A stretch of DNA of 34,141 bases, taken from a virus. The notes under the pieces are model-generated. The model saw only the letters and a program-made list of their open reading frames with translations, did no database searches and was not told where the DNA came from. Location: positions 1 through 34,141 of the IMG/VR virus record IMGVR_UViG_3300032282_001611, one strand, 5' to 3'. The position numbers were made by a program, and so were the translations under genes. Below, one piece after another: positions 11,603-30,493 of the stretch (position 1 is the first letter of the stretch; the number at the start of each line of letters is the position of its first letter).

Positions 11603-12568
11603 GTGAGTCTGATTCAAGAAACTATAAAAGCGCATGTTCACGGATTGAGAGCTAGCCCTAAGGGCTGGTGGACAATCAACTGTCCTATGTGCGTGGCATT
11701 TGGACAACCGCGGCCAGACACAAAGCGCCGCGGAGGATTCCGCTTTGACTCGGACGGTAGCACAGCATATCATTGCTTCAACTGTGGCTTCAAAGTACGC
11801 TGGCAACCAGGCCAGGGCATGGGACATAAGCTCAAAACATTGCTACGCCAAATTGGTGTAGACGAAGGAGAGGTGCAACGCCTCAACCTACAGTTGATGA
11901 GTGAACGAGATGACACACAGATAGTTGAGTACAAGGCAGAAGAGATATGGACACCAGAATGGCCCACTATAGATGTACCAGGATCTAGTACACTGACATG
12001 CGAAGCCGCAGAATATATAGAAGAAAGAAAAATGACAGGGCTTGCAGACTGGCATTGGTGTGATGCCAAGTTCTGGAACATTGACAGGCGTGTGATTTTA
12101 CCGTATACTTGGGAAGGTAACACAGTAGGATATGCCGCACGTTGGATAGGCACACCGCCCAAGGACACAGCTAAGATACTACGCAAGGCACCAACTGACT
12201 TTGTGTTCAACATGGATCCGCAAGGCGAACCCCGTAAGTTTGTGCTGGTAGTAGAAGGCGAGTTTGATGCACTAGCAGTTGATGGTGTTGCAGTACTACA
12301 CAATGACATAAGTCCCAAACAGGCACAGTTGATTGCAGACCTGGATGTTGAACCCATCGTAGTGCCAGATAAGGATCGTAGTGGAACCCGGCTAGCAGAA
12401 CGTGCGATAGAATTAGGATGGAGCGTGGCATTCCCAGACTGGGATAACGGAATAAAGGATTGCGCAGATGCGACTAAAGCGTATGGCCGAGTGGTAACGC
12501 TAAACAGTATAATACAATCGAGACAAGATAATCCGTTGAAGATAAAAATTATGTTAAGGAAGAATTGA
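11603..12568 (+). CDS. DNA primase (T4 gp61-like)
   Basis: A 321-residue primase, close to T4 gp61 (342 aa). It synthesises RNA primers on the lagging strand in complex with the gp41 helicase. The N-terminal zinc site is C27-x2-C30 ... C58-x2-C61 (INCPMC, HCFNC). The TOPRIM core has VVEGEFDAL (E218 and E220) and VVPDKDRSG (D256 and D258), giving the metal-binding acidic residues. The GTG at 11603 is the only early start that retains the zinc domain, and it has no ribosome-binding site. Its stop codon overlaps the start of gp41 by one base, matching the functional primosome pair. Confidence 0.9.
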   Translation: MSLIQETIKAHVHGLRASPKGWWTINCPMCVAFGQPRPDTKRRGGFRFDSDGSTAYHCFNCGFKVRWQPGQGMGHKLKTLLRQIGVDEGEVQRLNLQLMSERDDTQIVEYKAEEIWTPEWPTIDVPGSSTLTCEAAEYIEERKMTGLADWHWCDAKFWNIDRRVILPYTWEGNTVGYAARWIGTPPKDTAKILRKAPTDFVFNMDPQGEPRKFVLVVEGEFDALAVDGVAVLHNDISPKQAQLIADLDVEPIVVPDKDRSGTRLAERAIELGWSVAFPDWDNGIKDCADATKAYGRVVTLNSIIQSRQDNPLKIKIMLRKN

Positions 12569-14055
12569 TGGCTGAACAGCATGAAATTAAAGAGTACTCA
12601 GATGACTTGCAAAAGTTGTTCTTGGAGTTCTTGATTGGCAATGGAGAACTGGCCAGTAGATGCCAAGGTATTTTAGAAGCTGACTACTTCTCTCGTAGGT
12701 TAAATCCTGCCGCAGACTTTATCAAGAAGTATGTGGATCAGCACAGCATGGTTCCTACAGCAGAACAGGTCAATGCCACATGTGGCACAAACCTACAGCA
12801 GATTGATCCAACAGCAAATGTACATGCTGACTGGTTCCTGGGTGAGTTTGAACAGTTTTGTAGATACAAGGCACTTGAGAAGGCAATCCTTAAGAGTGCA
12901 GACATGCTGGAAAAGCAACAGTATGGCGGTGTTGAAAAACTGATCCGTGAAGCCACACAGATTGGACTTGCCAAGAGCTTTGGCACAGACTACTATGCAG
13001 ATCCACGTGCTCGTCTTGGCATACTTAAAGATGCCAACGGACAAGTTAGCACAGGTTGGAAGACTGTGGACGAAAAGCTGTATGGTGGATTCAATAGAGG
13101 TGAGCTCAACATCTTTGCTGGTGGATCGGGTGCAGGCAAGAGCTTGTTCTTGCAGAACATTGCATTGAACTGGAGTCTACAAGGCTACAATGTCATTTAC
13201 TTCAGTCTTGAATTGAGTGAAGGTCTAACTAGCTTGCGACTTGACAGCATGGTCACAGGCATGCCGACCAAAGAGGTGTTCCGCAACATTGATGACGTTG
13301 AACTCAAAGTCAAGATGGCAGGTAAGAAAGCAGGCGCATTGCAGGTAGTACAGTTGCCCAATGGTATCACTATCAACGACTTGCGAGCATGGCTAAAGGA
13401 ATTCCAGGTACAGACTGGCAAGAAAGTTGACGCTATCATTGTTGATTATCTTGACTTGATGATGCCAGCAGGGCAGAAGATCAGTGTGGCAGACTTGTTT
13501 ATCAAAGACAAGCTGGTATCAGAAGAATTGCGTAACTTGTCCATCCAGCTCAATCTGTTGTTGGTTACAGCGTCGCAGTTGAATCGTAGTGCTGTTGAAA
13601 CAGTGGAGTTTGATCACAGTCACATTGCAGGTGGCTTGAGTAAAATCCAGACAGCAGACAACGTGTTTGGTATTTTCTCTAGCATTGTGTTGCGCGAACG
13701 TGGGCGTGTGCAGATACAGTTCATGAAGACACGTAGTTCAAGTGCAGTTGGACAGAAGATGGAACTGGCATTTAATGTGCAGAGCTTGCGCATCAGTGAT
13801 ATGGATCCAGACGCAGATGATGGTCCAAGTGATGCTGATGTGCTATACAAGAGATTGCAGACACAACAACATGGCCAAGAAAAAAGCGTCCCTGGTGTTG
13901 CCAGCGACGCCGCGGTAGTTAAGAGAGTTGCAAGTGCGGAACAGTTGAGGGCTATGCTACGCAAAACCCCCCAAGTTCCAGAATCATCTCCTGCTAAATG
14001 GGAGAAAGCAACTGGTACACCTGCTTGGGAAAAACCACCCCAAGGACAGAGTTAA
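12568..14055 (+). CDS. Replicative DNA helicase (T4 gp41/DnaB-like)
   Basis: A 495-residue DnaB-family helicase (T4 gp41 is 475 aa). I start it at ATG 12568 behind AAGGAAG, since the preceding TTG overlaps the primase stop. The N-terminal 140 residues are the helical hairpin domain. The RecA-like core has Walker A GGSGAGKS (185-192), Walker B with VDAIIVDYLDLM (about 287-298) and the downstream TASQLNRS segment (H3-like). The last 65 residues are a proline- and alanine-rich, poorly conserved tail that may be disordered or contact partners. It is translationally coupled to primase. Its stop codon shares TTAA with the stop of the convergent gene. Confidence 0.93.
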   Translation: MAEQHEIKEYSDDLQKLFLEFLIGNGELASRCQGILEADYFSRRLNPAADFIKKYVDQHSMVPTAEQVNATCGTNLQQIDPTANVHADWFLGEFEQFCRYKALEKAILKSADMLEKQQYGGVEKLIREATQIGLAKSFGTDYYADPRARLGILKDANGQVSTGWKTVDEKLYGGFNRGELNIFAGGSGAGKSLFLQNIALNWSLQGYNVIYFSLELSEGLTSLRLDSMVTGMPTKEVFRNIDDVELKVKMAGKKAGALQVVQLPNGITINDLRAWLKEFQVQTGKKVDAIIVDYLDLMMPAGQKISVADLFIKDKLVSEELRNLSIQLNLLLVTASQLNRSAVETVEFDHSHIAGGLSKIQTADNVFGIFSSIVLRERGRVQIQFMKTRSSSAVGQKMELAFNVQSLRISDMDPDADDGPSDADVLYKRLQTQQHGQEKSVPGVASDAAVVKRVASAEQLRAMLRKTPQVPESSPAKWEKATGTPAWEKPPQGQS

Positions 14056-14496: not shown

Positions 14497-14514
14497 CATT
14501 TGGGAGCAGAGATC

Positions 14515-14769
14515 ATGAAGAAACAGACCCGTAGTCTACTACAAGAAATAAACGACTTAGTCCCCCAAAAGGACGTCAACTTCTTTGTTGAAAGCAAAGC
14601 AGTTCAGGCCATTGCCAGTGTACAAAACCTATTGAAACTGATAGAGTCTAACTACTCCCCAGAAGACGCATCAGATCTAATCAAGCGTTTGTTTAACAGC
14701 ATGAAAAGCGGAGATCAGGAAAAGTTCCGCAGAGGTGTGCGATATATACGAGAGTCAAAACAGCCATGA
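14515..14769 (+). CDS. Small helical hypothetical protein
   Basis: An 84-residue protein. I use ATG 14515 with GGGAGCAGAG ahead rather than a TTG 15 bases upstream. It is all-helical by pattern (VQNLLKLIESNYSPEDASDLIKRLFNSM) and basic at the C-terminus, with no membrane segment. It overlaps the following gene by four bases (ATGA), so it is probably produced in balance with it. The late promoter and location at the head of the virion-protein block suggest a virion or assembly role. I do not recognise a family by name. Confidence 0.65.
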   Translation: MKKQTRSLLQEINDLVPQKDVNFFVESKAVQAIASVQNLLKLIESNYSPEDASDLIKRLFNSMKSGDQEKFRRGVRYIRESKQP

Positions 14770-15923
14770 GATTTAATGATCTACTAGTCGAAGGACACAA
14801 GCGCATCCTTAAAGAAGCCACAGTTGGTCGCGACCTACAACATATAGAAGACTATCTAATCGTTGATGGTGCCGAAGGTGGACTTGGTAGTTTGATAGAC
14901 TTGAAGCGCCTTGCCGATAATGCAGGAGAAAGCTCAGTTAAGTGGGATGGCACAATGGCTATCTATTGGGGCTACAGCAACGAAGGCAAGTTCTATCTGA
15001 TCCCAAATGCCCAATGGGCAAAGAAGCTGGTACTTCCAAAGGAAGACTTAGCGTCAGAAATACAGAATACAGGACGTAAGCGTCCAGATCAAACAGATGA
15101 CCAACATGCACAAGTGCGCAAGGCGCTCAGTGACAAGTACATGGCTCTATGGGACGTATTTGAAAAAGCATCCGCAGGTACACGTGGCTTCTTCAAAGGT
15201 GATATTATGTTTACAGGTAAACAACATCCAGATGCCAACGGAAACTATGTGTTTACACCTAACAAGGTTACCTATACAGTGAGTCCTAAAGGGCTGTATG
15301 GAAAGATGCCTACCGCAGAAGTATTTGTTACGGTACATGGTAAAGCAGACGAGCTTGGTAGTCCTAGACTGACACCTGCAGATCCTAAAGAAGTAGCCAT
15401 GCTCAACAGTACACCTGCGCTGATTGCATTAGATATACAAAAGCCAGTAGGTGGTGTTGATATTGATACTGCTGAAATAGACAAAGCAATAGGCATGGTC
15501 AAGCAAAATGCTGCCGCCATTGATGCTATCTCTAATTTTACTGCACCAAAGTTTACCACATTCAAACAGATCATGTACAACTATGCAGTCAAGCTAGGTA
15601 AGAGTCATGATTCGTTAGACTTCAATGATTGGTTGCTGACTGCCAAGGTCAGTGAACCGCAGAAAGCCGTAATTGCAGACATACAAAAGAAACCAGAGTG
15701 GAAATTATTTTGGAGTACTTTCCTTGCGCTTAAACGAGCCAAGTACAAAGTTTTTGATCAGCTGACAAACCAGCACGGTAGCGAAATGGCCAAGACACTT
15801 GGTATCACTGCAAGCACCAATGGCAAGCCAGGCGGCGAAGGGTATGTTACTCCAGCTGGTAAAATCGTCAATCCGAATTTCCGTAGTGCGCCAGACAATC
15901 CAAGATTTACTGGCGAGATCTAA
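14766..15923 (+). CDS. DUF6267-like protein with a ligase-type KxDG motif
   Basis: A 385-residue protein coupled by ATGA to the upstream gene. It resembles an uncharacterised family of aquatic T4-like phages that I recall as DUF6267: LQHIEDYLIVDG, then SSVKWDGTMAIYWG with K59-W-D-G62, FFKGDIMFTG (142-151) and YVFTPNKVTYTVS (161-173). KxDG followed by a hydrophobic-G-(D/E) strand is the order of motifs I and III of the covalent nucleotidyltransferases (DNA/RNA ligases, capping enzymes). I do not see a convincing motif IV or V, so ligase activity is hypothesis. The C-terminal 30 residues are glycine- and proline-rich. Late-class expression would be odd for a replication ligase. Confidence 0.65.
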   Translation: MRFNDLLVEGHKRILKEATVGRDLQHIEDYLIVDGAEGGLGSLIDLKRLADNAGESSVKWDGTMAIYWGYSNEGKFYLIPNAQWAKKLVLPKEDLASEIQNTGRKRPDQTDDQHAQVRKALSDKYMALWDVFEKASAGTRGFFKGDIMFTGKQHPDANGNYVFTPNKVTYTVSPKGLYGKMPTAEVFVTVHGKADELGSPRLTPADPKEVAMLNSTPALIALDIQKPVGGVDIDTAEIDKAIGMVKQNAAAIDAISNFTAPKFTTFKQIMYNYAVKLGKSHDSLDFNDWLLTAKVSEPQKAVIADIQKKPEWKLFWSTFLALKRAKYKVFDQLTNQHGSEMAKTLGITASTNGKPGGEGYVTPAGKIVNPNFRSAPDNPRFTGEI

Positions 15924-15937
15924 TAGAGAGAAGCAAC

Positions 15938-16702
15938 ATGAAAAGAGACGAAAGTTTAGAACAAGATATCAACGAAGCGTACAGTAGTATATTTGTTGAA
16001 AGCAAACTATTCAAGAGTAAAGTTGCTGTAACTAGCATGGATATTGAAGATGTTGCAGAATACACTTACATAAGCATCGTGGCTCTTTGGGTAATGTACT
16101 GTGTTCCTGTTACCAAGCAAACTGCAATGGCTTATGCTGACCGTACAATGAGCTTTGGTAACTTCAAGCAAGAACGTAACATGGCAACAGACTTATATGT
16201 TGCACTCAATACATTGATAAACCCAACAGGATCTGTTAGCAAGACCCTAGCAGATCAAGCAGGCAATGTTGAGTCTCGTAAAAGCATACATGTCAATCAA
16301 CAGTTGATCAAGAACTTCCTTGATGGCATGGCATCAGGCAGCGTAGATAGTACTGATGCGTCTCGTTTCTTGCTTAAACTAGAGCGCATGCTAAACATAC
16401 ATAACATCATGTATAAGTCTGTGCGTAGGATGGCACAGGACTGGACAGGACTTAATCCACACGAACGCAATCTTGTAGTTTCAAGACTCATGCAATATTT
16501 TAACTTGCATGCCAAGCGCAGTGAGCTTAAACCTTTCCTAGAAGACATGGCAAGATCTGAAGGCTACAGAGAAGGCGATGCACCAGACCACGGAAACAAA
16601 GCTGATACTATCAAAGCATTAGCAGTAGCCGCGGCAGCATTATATGGTGGTTACAGGCTTGGTAGGGCATTACTTCCAGATGCAAAGAAACTGTTCAAAT
16701 AA
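15938..16702 (+). CDS. Hypothetical protein, probably virion-associated
   Basis: A 254-residue mostly helical protein with GAGAAG ahead of ATG 15938. The central part (about 45-190) has regular amphipathic helices (RFLLKLERMLNIHNIMYKSV). A hydrophobic segment near the C-terminus, IKALAVAAAALYGGYRLGRALL (about 226-247), could be a single membrane span. There is no signal peptide or catalytic motif. It is 14 bases after the DUF6267-like gene and probably in the same late operon. A membrane-contacting internal virion or ejection protein is one possibility, but the sequence alone does not show it. Confidence 0.65.
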   Translation: MKRDESLEQDINEAYSSIFVESKLFKSKVAVTSMDIEDVAEYTYISIVALWVMYCVPVTKQTAMAYADRTMSFGNFKQERNMATDLYVALNTLINPTGSVSKTLADQAGNVESRKSIHVNQQLIKNFLDGMASGSVDSTDASRFLLKLERMLNIHNIMYKSVRRMAQDWTGLNPHERNLVVSRLMQYFNLHAKRSELKPFLEDMARSEGYREGDAPDHGNKADTIKALAVAAAALYGGYRLGRALLPDAKKLFK

Positions 16703-22186: not shown

Positions 22187-22855
22187 ATGACTACAGATAC
22201 CCTAATTTCCAGGATTCAATTAAGACGCGGTAACTTTGAGGATCTTCCTATCCTTAAAGAAGGCGAGCTTGGCTATGCAATGGATAGAAAACGCCTATTC
22301 ATTGGAAATCCATCGCAGACTATAATTTCAACTGGCGACACTGATACCTATGAGTTAGATTTTCGTATCGCTCGCCCAAGTCAAATTATTGTATTAGTTG
22401 ATAATACACAAAAGACTGCTGGTGTACATTATACTGTATCTGGTACTGCATTGACTTTCAATGCACCTGCGCCAGCTCTTAACGCAGTTATTCAAGTAGG
22501 TGTTAACAATGAAATTGTATTGGATAAAGCCGATGCAATGACTGATACTTTGCCAATCTTGGCAGCAGTAATGGATAGTTTCAGTGGAATCTATTTTGAT
22601 TCCACAGTATATAATACAGCAGTAATTGATTACAGCTTCAAGGACTCATCAGGAAATATGCAAGTAGGACAAATAAGAATGATAACCAACGGAATAGATG
22701 TTAGCGTTGCAGACACAAGCAATGCCATTGGTTCTCCAACCGTATCTTTCTCAGGTGAAATAGATGGCAACGACTATTTCCGACTCAACTATACCAACAG
22801 CTCATCATCTGCTGGTACTTTCTATTACACAATAAGACTCTGGTATACACAGTGA
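22187..22855 (+). CDS. Virion protein with Mtd-N-like (phage tropism determinant) domain
   Basis: A 222-residue protein. The N-terminus SRIQLRRGNFEDLPILKEGELGYAMDRKRLFIGN is the hallmark of the major-tropism-determinant N-terminal domain found in phage receptor-binding and fibre-associated proteins (R-RG...LP.L..GE.GY..D...L.IG). The middle (TYELDFRIARPSQIIVLVDNTQ) and C-terminal beta-rich part (SFSGEIDGNDYFRLNYTNSSSS) suit a trimeric fibre or baseplate module. A late promoter precedes it and its stop overlaps the GTG of the next gene. It is likely a tail or baseplate structural protein; no hypervariable cassette or reverse transcriptase is nearby. Confidence 0.75.
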   Translation: MTTDTLISRIQLRRGNFEDLPILKEGELGYAMDRKRLFIGNPSQTIISTGDTDTYELDFRIARPSQIIVLVDNTQKTAGVHYTVSGTALTFNAPAPALNAVIQVGVNNEIVLDKADAMTDTLPILAAVMDSFSGIYFDSTVYNTAVIDYSFKDSSGNMQVGQIRMITNGIDVSVADTSNAIGSPTVSFSGEIDGNDYFRLNYTNSSSSAGTFYYTIRLWYTQ

Positions 22856-27478: not shown

Positions 27479-30400
27479 ATGGGTAGACTCAGCAGTGGCT
27501 ACGGCCCACGTGGCGGCGGATTTCACAGCGGTACAGATTATGCGGCGCCTATAGGTACGCCTATCTACGCCAATGGGCCAATGACCGTCACTGGAGTCTA
27601 TCCAAATGGATCAGCAGGACAAACAGGATATGGCAATACAGTAACACTCAAAGATGCCAACGGAGTTGAATATAGGCATGCTCACTTAAACAGCGTACCT
27701 AATCTACAACCAGGACAGCAAGTTGGTGCAGGCGACTTAGTAGGTAATGTAGGCAATACAGGAAACTCATCAGGACCGCACAACCATTTTGAAGTTTCTA
27801 CTGCTGGCAACATCAATGGCAAGCAAGGACTAACCAGCGGCGAAGCAATAGATCCCAAGACAGGAAAAGCCTATTCAGATTCGTTCTCAATGGGTAGCAA
27901 GGATGCAGGAAGTCTTAATAGCGAGCGCGGAGGTGCAGGACAGGAACAAGGAGATGATCACGATCATACTCCAGCACCTACAGATAAACCACCACCGGCA
28001 CCTACAACAACTACACCGGCACCCAAAGCACCACCAACATCCAATGGTAAACGAGTACATCGACTAACTGACAGGAATTCAGCAGGCGGTGCTATCGATG
28101 AGTGTGTTGCTAAAACTGTGTTTGTTAACAATCTACCTATCAGTGTTGATGGTAGCAAAGGTACAGGGCATCCAGCAGGATCAGATCCTGCTGACCGTGT
28201 GCCGCCGAATACAAGGCCCGGTGGTGCAACACCCAGGAGAAATCCAAACAATAATAATTGTGTAGGCGAGCGACCTTCTCCGAATGGTGGCCAGCAACCG
28301 CCACAACCCACTACACCAAATGCACCAGAAGGTAACCCAACTAATATTGTAGACTTAGGTAGGCAGTTACAGGCACAAGGAATTCGAGTAAGCGAGCATC
28401 CTGAATTTGGTGGAGTAGAACCAGTACACAGAGGTAGAGGTCATTATGATGGTCGAGCAATTGATGTTAATGCACCTGGCGGCATAGTTGAGGCCAATGA
28501 CCCAGTATGGGGTCCTCGATTTGATACGATTGCACAGCAAGCTCGCGCACAAGGATTTACAGTTATTTGGCGTAGTGCTGGCCACTATAACCACATGCAC
28601 ATTGAACAACCAGCCAATGGTGTGATACCAAATGCCAATCCACCAAATCCTGCGGCACCCCCAGCACCTAATCTTCCAGCAGGTGCATCTGGCGATTGTG
28701 TTCCAGGAGATAATGCAGTACCTGCACCTAGTCCTCCACCTTCAGCGGATCACTGCTACCATTGTTGGGCCACAGCAAACGGTAGTAGGAATGTATTTGT
28801 TGAAAATCTACCAGTGAACTTCGAAGGTAATCTTGATACCTGCGGTCACGCTCGTATTGAAGGTTCACCAAATGTGTTTGTTGGGGAGACTACTAACACA
28901 GCACAAGATAGGCCGCTTGGGTCTGACCGAGCCGCACGTAATACCAAAGAATCAAACAAAGGCAGCGGCAACGCAAGTCCGAGCAATGTTGCTTGCCGTC
29001 AGAATGAAGTCGATCAGTCTAAGAAAAATGCTGATCCAGAAGATCCCAATAAAGATGGTCCGCAACCAAACGCTGATCCAGACGATCCCAATAAACCAGT
29101 TGATGCAAAGCCAGGTGTAACAGGTGAAGGACAAGCAGATAGCGAACAAGCCAGCCGTCAACGATTATTAGCACAAATGGAACAAGATTACGCCAACAGA
29201 GATCAATGGAAAGGCGGTAAGGGTTCTCCTGCTGGCAATGCCGCTTTCCAAAATTTAGGATATGGTAATGCTGCCAATGGAACCGCATGGTGCGCTGGTT
29301 ATGTAAACAGCAATCTCAAGGATGCTGGCGCAGGATATGCATCAAGTCTAAGTTCACAATCACCCACAGCATTTAAGCCAGTGCCATCAGGCCAAGCCAA
29401 GCCAGGCGATGTGTTAGTGTTTGATCATCATACAGCACTGGTCAAAGAAGTTGCACCAAATGGTGATATATTATTACAAGGTGGTAACCAGGGTGGCGGT
29501 AGCGGTGCAGTCACACAAAACTGGTTACGTGCAAGCAATGGATACAATTATGGCGGACAGAGTCTACAAGGAATTTACAATCCTCACGACAAGGAATGGA
29601 ACGCCAGTCATAATCTAAATGTGATACCCAATGGACAACAGCGACCTGGATACGGCAGCGCACAACCAGGCGGAACGCCCGGCGGGAAAGATTGTCCACC
29701 ACAGACACCACAAGAACAAGCAGCCGGAGAAGGAAAAGGTACTAGACCAGAGCTAGGTGGTGATGGCCGCACACCAGGCGATGTTGCTTATCCTAATCCA
29801 AGCAGTATATTGGGCGGCATCCTTGGCGGCGGAGGCTTGTTTGGCGGCGGTCCAACCTTCCCAACAAATCAAGGACCTTATCCTGCACCACCTAAAGTTG
29901 ATCCAATGAAGATTGCGTCAGAAGTATTTGATGCATCAATGGACGACAATGAAAGTCCTCCAATCAGTCCGTTGAACACATGCGATCGTGCTAGAGAATT
30001 AGCCAAGGCAGCAACTGGAAAAGAATTCCCATCCGGAACAGAAGTGGCCGCACAAGTAGCAACAGCACAGAAGCTTTGGTGGGACGAAGCAATGGCTGCA
30101 AATCAATATAGATACGAAGCGGCTGTGGAAGCATACAGGCAGGCAGGCATAACTGCATTTAGACCACTAAGCGCAGAATCAATGACACGCATCATGGCTT
30201 ACCAAAGCGGTTGGGGTAATAGTAGATGCGTTAGTTCAGCCGCATACGATAAGAACAATCCTATAGGTATTGGGTGGAACGGATCTTCGTTCTACGAATA
30301 CCCAGACAAACAGTTAGGATGGGATGCTACATGGAAATTCATAGCATTTGGAACAGATGGCAGTCTAGGACGATACTTGCTCCCTGTAGATACCCCGCAG

Positions 30401-30493
30401 GAAACAGATTTTGAGATAGACTATATCTACAAGCAAGGATTGGTAAACGGTCAAACACCACCGGGTGTGTTGCTGATAAAGCCACCCCAGTAA
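27479..30493 (+). CDS. Multi-domain tail-associated peptidoglycan hydrolase (M23, M15-like, CHAP, glucosaminidase-like)
   Basis: A 1004-residue modular protein with AAGGA ahead of ATG 27479. Domains in order: an M23 LytM-type endopeptidase with H16-x3-D20, H67 and H101-N-H103-FE; a proline linker; a PAAR-like patch near 195-245; an M15/VanY-like carboxypeptidase with H322-x6-D329 and H372-M-H374; a second PAAR-like patch (435-470, NGSRNVFVENLPVNFEG). Then comes a CHAP/amidase-like domain with C605 (GTAWCAGYVN) and H651 (HHTALV), a glycine/proline linker, and a C-terminal region with YQSGWGNS and NNPIGIGW (908-933) resembling the lysozyme-like glucosaminidase fold. There is no signal peptide. 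It is most likely a baseplate/spike lysin opening the cell wall during injection. Confidence 0.85.
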   Translation: MGRLSSGYGPRGGGFHSGTDYAAPIGTPIYANGPMTVTGVYPNGSAGQTGYGNTVTLKDANGVEYRHAHLNSVPNLQPGQQVGAGDLVGNVGNTGNSSGPHNHFEVSTAGNINGKQGLTSGEAIDPKTGKAYSDSFSMGSKDAGSLNSERGGAGQEQGDDHDHTPAPTDKPPPAPTTTTPAPKAPPTSNGKRVHRLTDRNSAGGAIDECVAKTVFVNNLPISVDGSKGTGHPAGSDPADRVPPNTRPGGATPRRNPNNNNCVGERPSPNGGQQPPQPTTPNAPEGNPTNIVDLGRQLQAQGIRVSEHPEFGGVEPVHRGRGHYDGRAIDVNAPGGIVEANDPVWGPRFDTIAQQARAQGFTVIWRSAGHYNHMHIEQPANGVIPNANPPNPAAPPAPNLPAGASGDCVPGDNAVPAPSPPPSADHCYHCWATANGSRNVFVENLPVNFEGNLDTCGHARIEGSPNVFVGETTNTAQDRPLGSDRAARNTKESNKGSGNASPSNVACRQNEVDQSKKNADPEDPNKDGPQPNADPDDPNKPVDAKPGVTGEGQADSEQASRQRLLAQMEQDYANRDQWKGGKGSPAGNAAFQNLGYGNAANGTAWCAGYVNSNLKDAGAGYASSLSSQSPTAFKPVPSGQAKPGDVLVFDHHTALVKEVAPNGDILLQGGNQGGGSGAVTQNWLRASNGYNYGGQSLQGIYNPHDKEWNASHNLNVIPNGQQRPGYGSAQPGGTPGGKDCPPQTPQEQAAGEGKGTRPELGGDGRTPGDVAYPNPSSILGGILGGGGLFGGGPTFPTNQGPYPAPPKVDPMKIASEVFDASMDDNESPPISPLNTCDRARELAKAATGKEFPSGTEVAAQVATAQKLWWDEAMAANQYRYEAAVEAYRQAGITAFRPLSAESMTRIMAYQSGWGNSRCVSSAAYDKNNPIGIGWNGSSFYEYPDKQLGWDATWKFIAFGTDGSLGRYLLPVDTPQETDFEIDYIYKQGLVNGQTPPGVLLIKPPQ

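Follow-up and report, generated by a model that had tools for sequence, protein, structure and literature searches.

The DUF6267 gene and its family

The window analysed here is the whole 34,141-nucleotide stretch of the virus record IMGVR_UViG_3300032282_001611. It carries an open reading frame (ORF 14766-15923) of the family DUF6267, which is the subject of this study (Table 1). Its ATG start codon overlaps the stop codon of the preceding gene (14500-14769). From a KxDG motif in the product, an earlier reading of the letters, hereafter the original prediction, had proposed a covalent nucleotidyltransferase fold.

The protein scored 57.6 bits (E 1.9e-15) against the Pfam model of DUF6267 (PF19782), above the gathering cut-off of 27, and also matched phrog_455 (E 1.8e-7). 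Neither entry has a function, phrog_455 being labelled 'unknown function', so that membership explains nothing by itself. No NCBIfam model matched the protein, the name DUF6267 was not found in any paper of the literature searched, and the phage records read list its product as a hypothetical protein. The statement in the original prediction that no function is assigned to this family was therefore correct.

Close relatives of the window protein are encoded on uncultivated phage contigs, and distant ones were found in cyanophages, pelagiphage HTVC008M, Methylophilales phages, Vibrio phage 2.275.O and Stenotrophomonas phage DLP6. The protein shares about 20% identity with the cyanophage members and belongs to a divergent branch. 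A search with the DUF6267 member of P-TIM40 matched 470 public phage records, mostly of cyanophages. Relatives are encoded on at least 598 IMG/VR stretches, and the carriers include ocean and freshwater phages. Matches were also obtained in bacterial and archaeal genome records (L239-L272), mostly contigs of metagenome-assembled or single-amplified genomes; this origin suggests phage contigs that were binned with cells, and we claim no cellular family. One isolate record, Nonlabens xiamenensis 1Q3 (L243), was among these cellular matches.

Table 1. Features of the DUF6267 gene and its surroundings in the window (residue numbers refer to the DUF6267 protein; fractions give the number of family sequences with the residue)
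Feature	Position	Strand	Evidence
DUF6267 ORF, predicted covalent nucleotidyltransferase (RNA-ligase-like), 385 amino acids	14766..15923	+	PF19782 match; model; nearest solved folds are ligases
Motif I, K59-W-D61-G62	14940..14951	+	K59, D61 and G62 81/81; K59 at end of strand 57-59 in model
Candidate motif III, KGD146IMF	15195..15212	+	D146 81/81; within strand 141-150 of model
Motif IV, E358-G359-Y-V361	15837..15848	+	E358, G359 and V361 81/81
Motif V, K366-I-V-N	15861..15872	+	K366 81/81; hhalign pairs block with T4 Rnl1 EGYVAVMKDGSHFKI, pairing alone not significant
H26-x-E28-D29, conserved element 5' of motif I	14841..14852	+	H26 and E28 80/81; D29 79/81
P165-N166-K-V-T-Y170, conserved element past motif III	15258..15275	+	P165, N166 and Y170 81/81
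Helical insertion between motifs III and IV, residues 236-345	15471..15800	+	Model helices 236-247, 249-256, 266-279, 286-292, 297-307, 310-345
Upstream flanking gene, 89 amino acids, homologue of Atu_ph07 gp068	14500..14769	+	32% identity, E 3e-8; phrog_11854 'virion structural protein'
Downstream flanking gene, 254 amino acids, homologue of Atu_ph07 gp064	15938..16702	+	29% identity, E 5e-26
DnaB-type replicative helicase (T4 gp41 counterpart)	12565..14055	+	phrog_19, E 2.2e-69
DNA primase	11603..12568	+	phrog_47, E 1.8e-21

Conserved motifs and predicted fold

Residue conservation was determined in 81 family sequences with less than 80% mutual identity. K59, D61, G62, G69, F76, D146, P165, N166, Y170, H191, K326, E358, G359, V361, K366 and F372 were invariant. 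The two segments on which the original prediction was built, KxDG at residues 59-62 (within SSVKWDGTMAIYWG, residues 56-69) and GFFKGDIMFTG at residues 141-151, are both present, and K59, the predicted nucleotide-accepting lysine, is retained throughout the set. K59-x-D-G, D146, E358-G-x-V and K366 agree, in order, with covalent nucleotidyltransferase motifs I, III, IV and V. Motifs I and III are present and invariant but insufficient alone; motifs IV and V, which had been missed before, carry the case. Within the family, motifs I and III are 69-91 residues apart, motifs III and IV 163-250, and motifs IV and V 8-14 (median 12).

KxDG by itself is within chance: it was present in 20% of shuffles of the protein, and 123 of the 574 other long ORFs contained it as well. 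Chance does not account for the ordered pattern KxDG...[DE]...EGxV...K[LIVMF], which occurred in 0.15% of the shuffles. In the other phage ORFs, all 250 amino acids or longer, the ordered pattern had ten matches: seven T4 Rnl1 homologues, Phosso gp446, and Atu_ph07 gp066 in two copies from the same genome. Because this set included ligase loci retrieved for the analysis, the count is a specificity check and not a census.

Sequence comparison by itself did not connect the protein to ligases. There was no match to PF09414 (RNA_ligase, Rnl2-type) or PF01068 up to E 10, no ligase link in searches of PDB sequences with the single protein or a 37-row profile, and no significant hhalign match of DUF6267 to the profiles of T4 Rnl1, Rnl2 and gp30. 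The alignments with T4 Rnl1 spanned 14-40 columns at E 0.016-0.044, but an unrelated helicase profile used as control scored as high, and the hhalign result was therefore used only for the location of the match. With T4 Rnl1, the best segment covered motifs IV and V, whereas the helicase control matched an unrelated stretch.

We obtained an AlphaFold2 model of the window protein with 34 relatives, which had a predicted local distance difference test (pLDDT) score of 86.4 and a predicted template modelling (pTM) score of 0.81. A second model was made for syn9 gp183, a 320-residue protein with a much shorter insertion between motifs III and IV (pLDDT 89.9, pTM 0.85). Many alignment rows were common to both models, which are thus independent in target but not fully in input. 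For both, a Foldseek search of the PDB placed covalent nucleotidyltransferases on top. Structural Z scores were calculated with VIA-align for the Foldseek candidates, and rows within 1 Z were treated as ties. The window model was closest to Naegleria RNA ligase (Z 6.4; 174 residues at 4.5 Å), followed by T4 Rnl1 (5.5), TbREL1 (5.4) and T4 Rnl2 (5.3). Ligases made up 43 of its 50 nearest rows, and the list also held seven unrelated, mostly helical chains with Z 4-5. The syn9 gp183 model likewise ranked Naegleria RNA ligase first (Z 8.2; 177 residues at 3.9 Å), before T4 Rnl1 (7.8), Trl1 (7.0), an archaeal RNA ligase (6.6), T4 Rnl2 (6.3) and human DNA ligase 1 (5.4), and all 50 nearest rows were ligases. 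It is the uniformity of these lists, together with the motifs, that gives the fold evidence its weight.

At the C-terminal ends of the alignments, K366 falls on residue 240 of T4 Rnl1 (5tt6), 225 of T4 Rnl2 (2hvq) and 307 of TbREL1 (1xdn), provided that the last dozen residues contain no gap; in each of the three enzymes, this residue is the lysine of motif V. The window protein has 58 residues before K59 and 19 after K366 (the median after K366 in the aligned segments is 20), which leaves no room for an OB domain.

Gene context in the window and in other phages

The window further carries genes for UvsY (at 507), a UvsW-type helicase (5174), a 2-oxoglutarate oxygenase (6646), an exonuclease (21489) and ribonucleotide reductase (23374 and 25686). 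Together with the primase and DnaB-type helicase genes, these place the DUF6267 gene in a replication and recombination module, in which some genes with virion-protein annotations are interspersed. The original prediction had located it among late virion genes, which is wrong, since it follows the primase and DnaB-type helicase genes. That proposal is upheld in part: the covalent nucleotidyltransferase fold is backed by two predicted structures with ligases as their nearest solved relatives, but the gene setting that it gave was mistaken. Of the two outcomes that it had named as refuting it, an unrelated predicted fold and a K59 that is not conserved, neither was obtained. No tRNA genes were found in the window.

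Two other genes of the window may be recorded here. The gene at 22187-22855 lies between those for the exonuclease and ribonucleotide reductase; its product has at its N-terminus an Mtd_N domain (major tropism determinant; E 3.5e-8) and is possibly a tail or receptor-binding protein. In the 1004-residue product of 27479-30493, an M23 peptidase domain at the N-terminus is accompanied by a weaker match to CHAP, so that this single phage protein would combine cell-wall hydrolase domains of two kinds.

In cyanophages and HTVC008M, the DUF6267 gene comes after the genes for polymerase, UvsX and gp41 helicase. In the jumbo phages Atu_ph07 and Phosso, the two window genes that flank DUF6267 (14500 and 15938) have homologues, and between these lie an RNA-ligase-like and a Pol-beta-like gene; the DUF6267 profile found nothing above its cut-off there. 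A Pol-beta-like protein is fused N-terminally to DUF6267 at loci L026 and L027 (7110-9107), its gene adjoins DUF6267 at L020 (7135-8001), and it lies about 6 kb away at L018 (10388-11170). Five Pol-beta-like members share the GDxD...D and VQxD segments. The Pol-beta-like family (GDxD...D, VQxDfMF) was also seen at L234 (3049-3882) and L235 (6139-6999), and across loci it accompanies either DUF6267 or an RNA-ligase-like gene. Enzymes of the Pol-beta type associated with RNA ligases have been described in phages (PMC7824862). We considered RlaP (PF10127) as the identity of this partner, but the profile search did not detect it, nor did any other Pfam family match, and a PDB profile search with the Pol-beta-like protein returned nothing.

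A gene for a HIGH-fold nucleotidyltransferase, or 'cytidyltransferase', adjoins or lies near DUF6267 in S-PRM1, P-TIM40, HTVC008M, C48C1, Sf-CH11, syn9 and DLP6, and at L020 and L026. In S-PM2 (L275 996-2775; NC_006820.1 ~103025-104804), the C-terminus of DUF6267 runs in-frame into a HIGH-fold nucleotidyltransferase (GRFNPPTTGHE). The NC_006820.1 record splits this gene over two overlapping frames, and BFVD holds such an S-PM2 protein of 591 amino acids. The HIGH-fold proteins near DUF6267 carry DUF5824 (PF19141) at L026 (9073-11418) and in HTVC008M (L030 8401-10191), and that of C48C1 (L031 7643-8986) has a weak match to it. Two genes 3' of DUF6267 and just before the HIGH-fold gene, HTVC008M encodes gp129 (L030 7742-8404), a P-loop kinase of AAA_33, the family in which T4 PseT scored best in the same search. 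This protein is possibly a polynucleotide kinase. AAA_33 kinases were found in 10 of 10 phages tested, so that their presence says little, and only the position in HTVC008M was used.

Interpretation and comparison with known systems

We interpret DUF6267 as a divergent, stand-alone and new family within the known covalent nucleotidyltransferase superfamily. We consider it very probable that its members are catalytic-type covalent nucleotidyltransferases, and likely that they are polynucleotide ligases. With moderate confidence we infer an ATP-dependent ligase joining 5'-phosphate and 3'-hydroxyl ends in the repair of RNA, in particular tRNA; the activity, the ATP donor, the RNA substrate and the roles of the partners are all part of that inference. 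This reading is drawn from the invariance of the residues, the predicted fold with its nearest solved structures, and the gene linkage. In the fold comparison, RNA ligases rank above DNA ligases. In such an enzyme, K59 would attack the alpha-phosphate of ATP to form lysyl-adenosine monophosphate (AMP), with a metal held by D146 and E358 together with D61, and K366 would contact the AMP phosphate. The AMP would then move to the 5'-phosphate end, and attack by the 3'-hydroxyl would seal the break. The helical insertion may assist in substrate docking, substituting for the absent OB or C-terminal domain, and the partners, which vary by phage (Pol-beta-like nucleotidyltransferase, P-loop kinase, HIGH-fold nucleotidyltransferase), may prepare the ends or restore nucleotides. 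More tentatively, DUF6267 proteins could be OB-less polynucleotide ligases at the core of an end-repair cassette with varying nucleotidyltransferases and a kinase in T4-like marine cyanophages, pelagiphages and freshwater relatives, which would explain the absent ligase of cyanomyoviruses.

Several observations weigh against an RNA repair ligase. In sequence, the protein matches neither a ligase family nor a PDB chain significantly, motif V has a single lysine (K-I-V) instead of K-x-K, and motif III has Asp instead of the usual Glu. The best Foldseek E values are weak (0.09 for the window model, 0.07 for syn9 gp183), and even the highest structural Z scores are moderate. With RlaP undetected and the PDB search empty, the Pol-beta assignment of the partner is read from the residue pattern alone. 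Furthermore, the replication genes nearby and the lack of a known ligase in several DUF6267 phages would also fit the sealing of DNA; DUF6267 would then be the replicative DNA ligase otherwise missing from T4-like cyanophages and pelagiphages, sealing nicks between Okazaki fragments in the role of T4 gp30. PF01068 had no match in any of seven cyanophage-type genomes (S-PRM1, Melnitz, HTVC008M, C48C1, P-TIM40, syn9, Sf-CH11), nor PF01653 or PF09414 in the five tested (the first five of these). The absence of PF01068 agrees with a review of T4-like cyanophages that found no g30 homologues in cyanomyoviruses and left distant ones open, but deemed use of the host ligase more probable (PMC2984593). 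DLP6 and Vibrio phage 2.275.O encode both a DNA ligase and DUF6267, which weakens simple replacement and shows that it is not the whole answer. As DUF6267 moreover lacks an OB domain and motif VI, and resembles DNA ligases less than RNA ligases, we regard a replicative DNA ligase as unlikely.

Nucleotidylation without strand joining, in which DUF6267 would cap or tag nucleic-acid ends, a protein or a small molecule together with the HIGH-fold nucleotidyltransferase, would agree with the fusion in S-PM2 and the adjacency elsewhere. The superfamily includes guanylyltransferases, and PCE1 appeared in the Foldseek list. Its match was weaker, however (E 0.42), than those of the RNA ligases, the window has no HIGH-fold gene within reach, and DUF6267 lacks the OB domain that capping enzymes need; we judge this function improbable. 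That the motif likeness is accidental, and that the gene encodes some virion or accessory protein whose fold is unrelated, seems very improbable. KxDG is frequent by chance, homology to ligases is not significant in sequence, and the small gene beside it carries the annotation 'virion structural protein', but four invariant motifs stand in order and two models retrieved almost only ligases.

A polynucleotide ligase of this kind in abundant ocean viruses would bear on how phages undo host defences that cut tRNA or finish DNA replication, and on the question of a distant ligase left open in PMC2984593. It could also provide a new compact ligase for laboratory use.

DUF6267 resembles the T4 Rnl1 family in the order of the four motifs and in its fold, as the N-terminal catalytic domain of 5tt6 (to residue 251) ranks second-best for the shorter syn9 gp183. 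The median spacing of 12 between motifs IV and V in DUF6267 compares with 13 in T4 Rnl1 (E227 to K240). DUF6267 differs in lacking a significant whole-domain profile match and the Rnl1 C-terminal domain, and in having the large helical insertion and one motif V lysine. NgrRnl, the Naegleria enzyme, uses K170, D172, E227, E312 and K326 in catalysis (PMC9931718), and all five have invariant equivalents in DUF6267. It is the best solved fold for both models, with a sequence identity of about 10%; the alignment covers its C-terminal nucleotidyltransferase domain, and nothing in DUF6267 corresponds to its N-terminal domain. T4 Rnl2 shares the common core, but DUF6267 lacks the PF09414 match and the Rnl2 C-terminal domain. 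The same core is found in adenosine triphosphate-dependent DNA ligases such as T4 gp30 and human LIG1 (Z ~4-5.4), which differ in their OB domain, motif VI and PF01068 match. The mRNA capping guanylyltransferases have a C-terminal OB domain, for which the DUF6267 protein has no sequence left.

A survey of RNA repair in jumbo phages reported only RtcB, Rnl1, Rnl2 and rare divergent actinophage ligases (PMC7824862). Atu_ph07 gp066 and Phosso gp446 occupy the same place between homologous flanking genes as DUF6267 and carry KLDG...EGVV...FK; gp066 matches PF09414 weakly (E 0.002). By hhalign, this pair aligned with T4 Rnl1 over 197 columns starting at motif I (E 0.005, a pairwise value), and with DUF6267 over a short segment exactly at motif I (E 0.007, likewise pairwise). 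Beyond its candidate motif III, gp066 has PNTVVY, similar to P165-N166-K-V-T-Y170 of DUF6267, and the motif V block FKVVDKDHFAPLNNF of Phosso gp446 resembles LKLVDRLEFSRANF of DUF6267.
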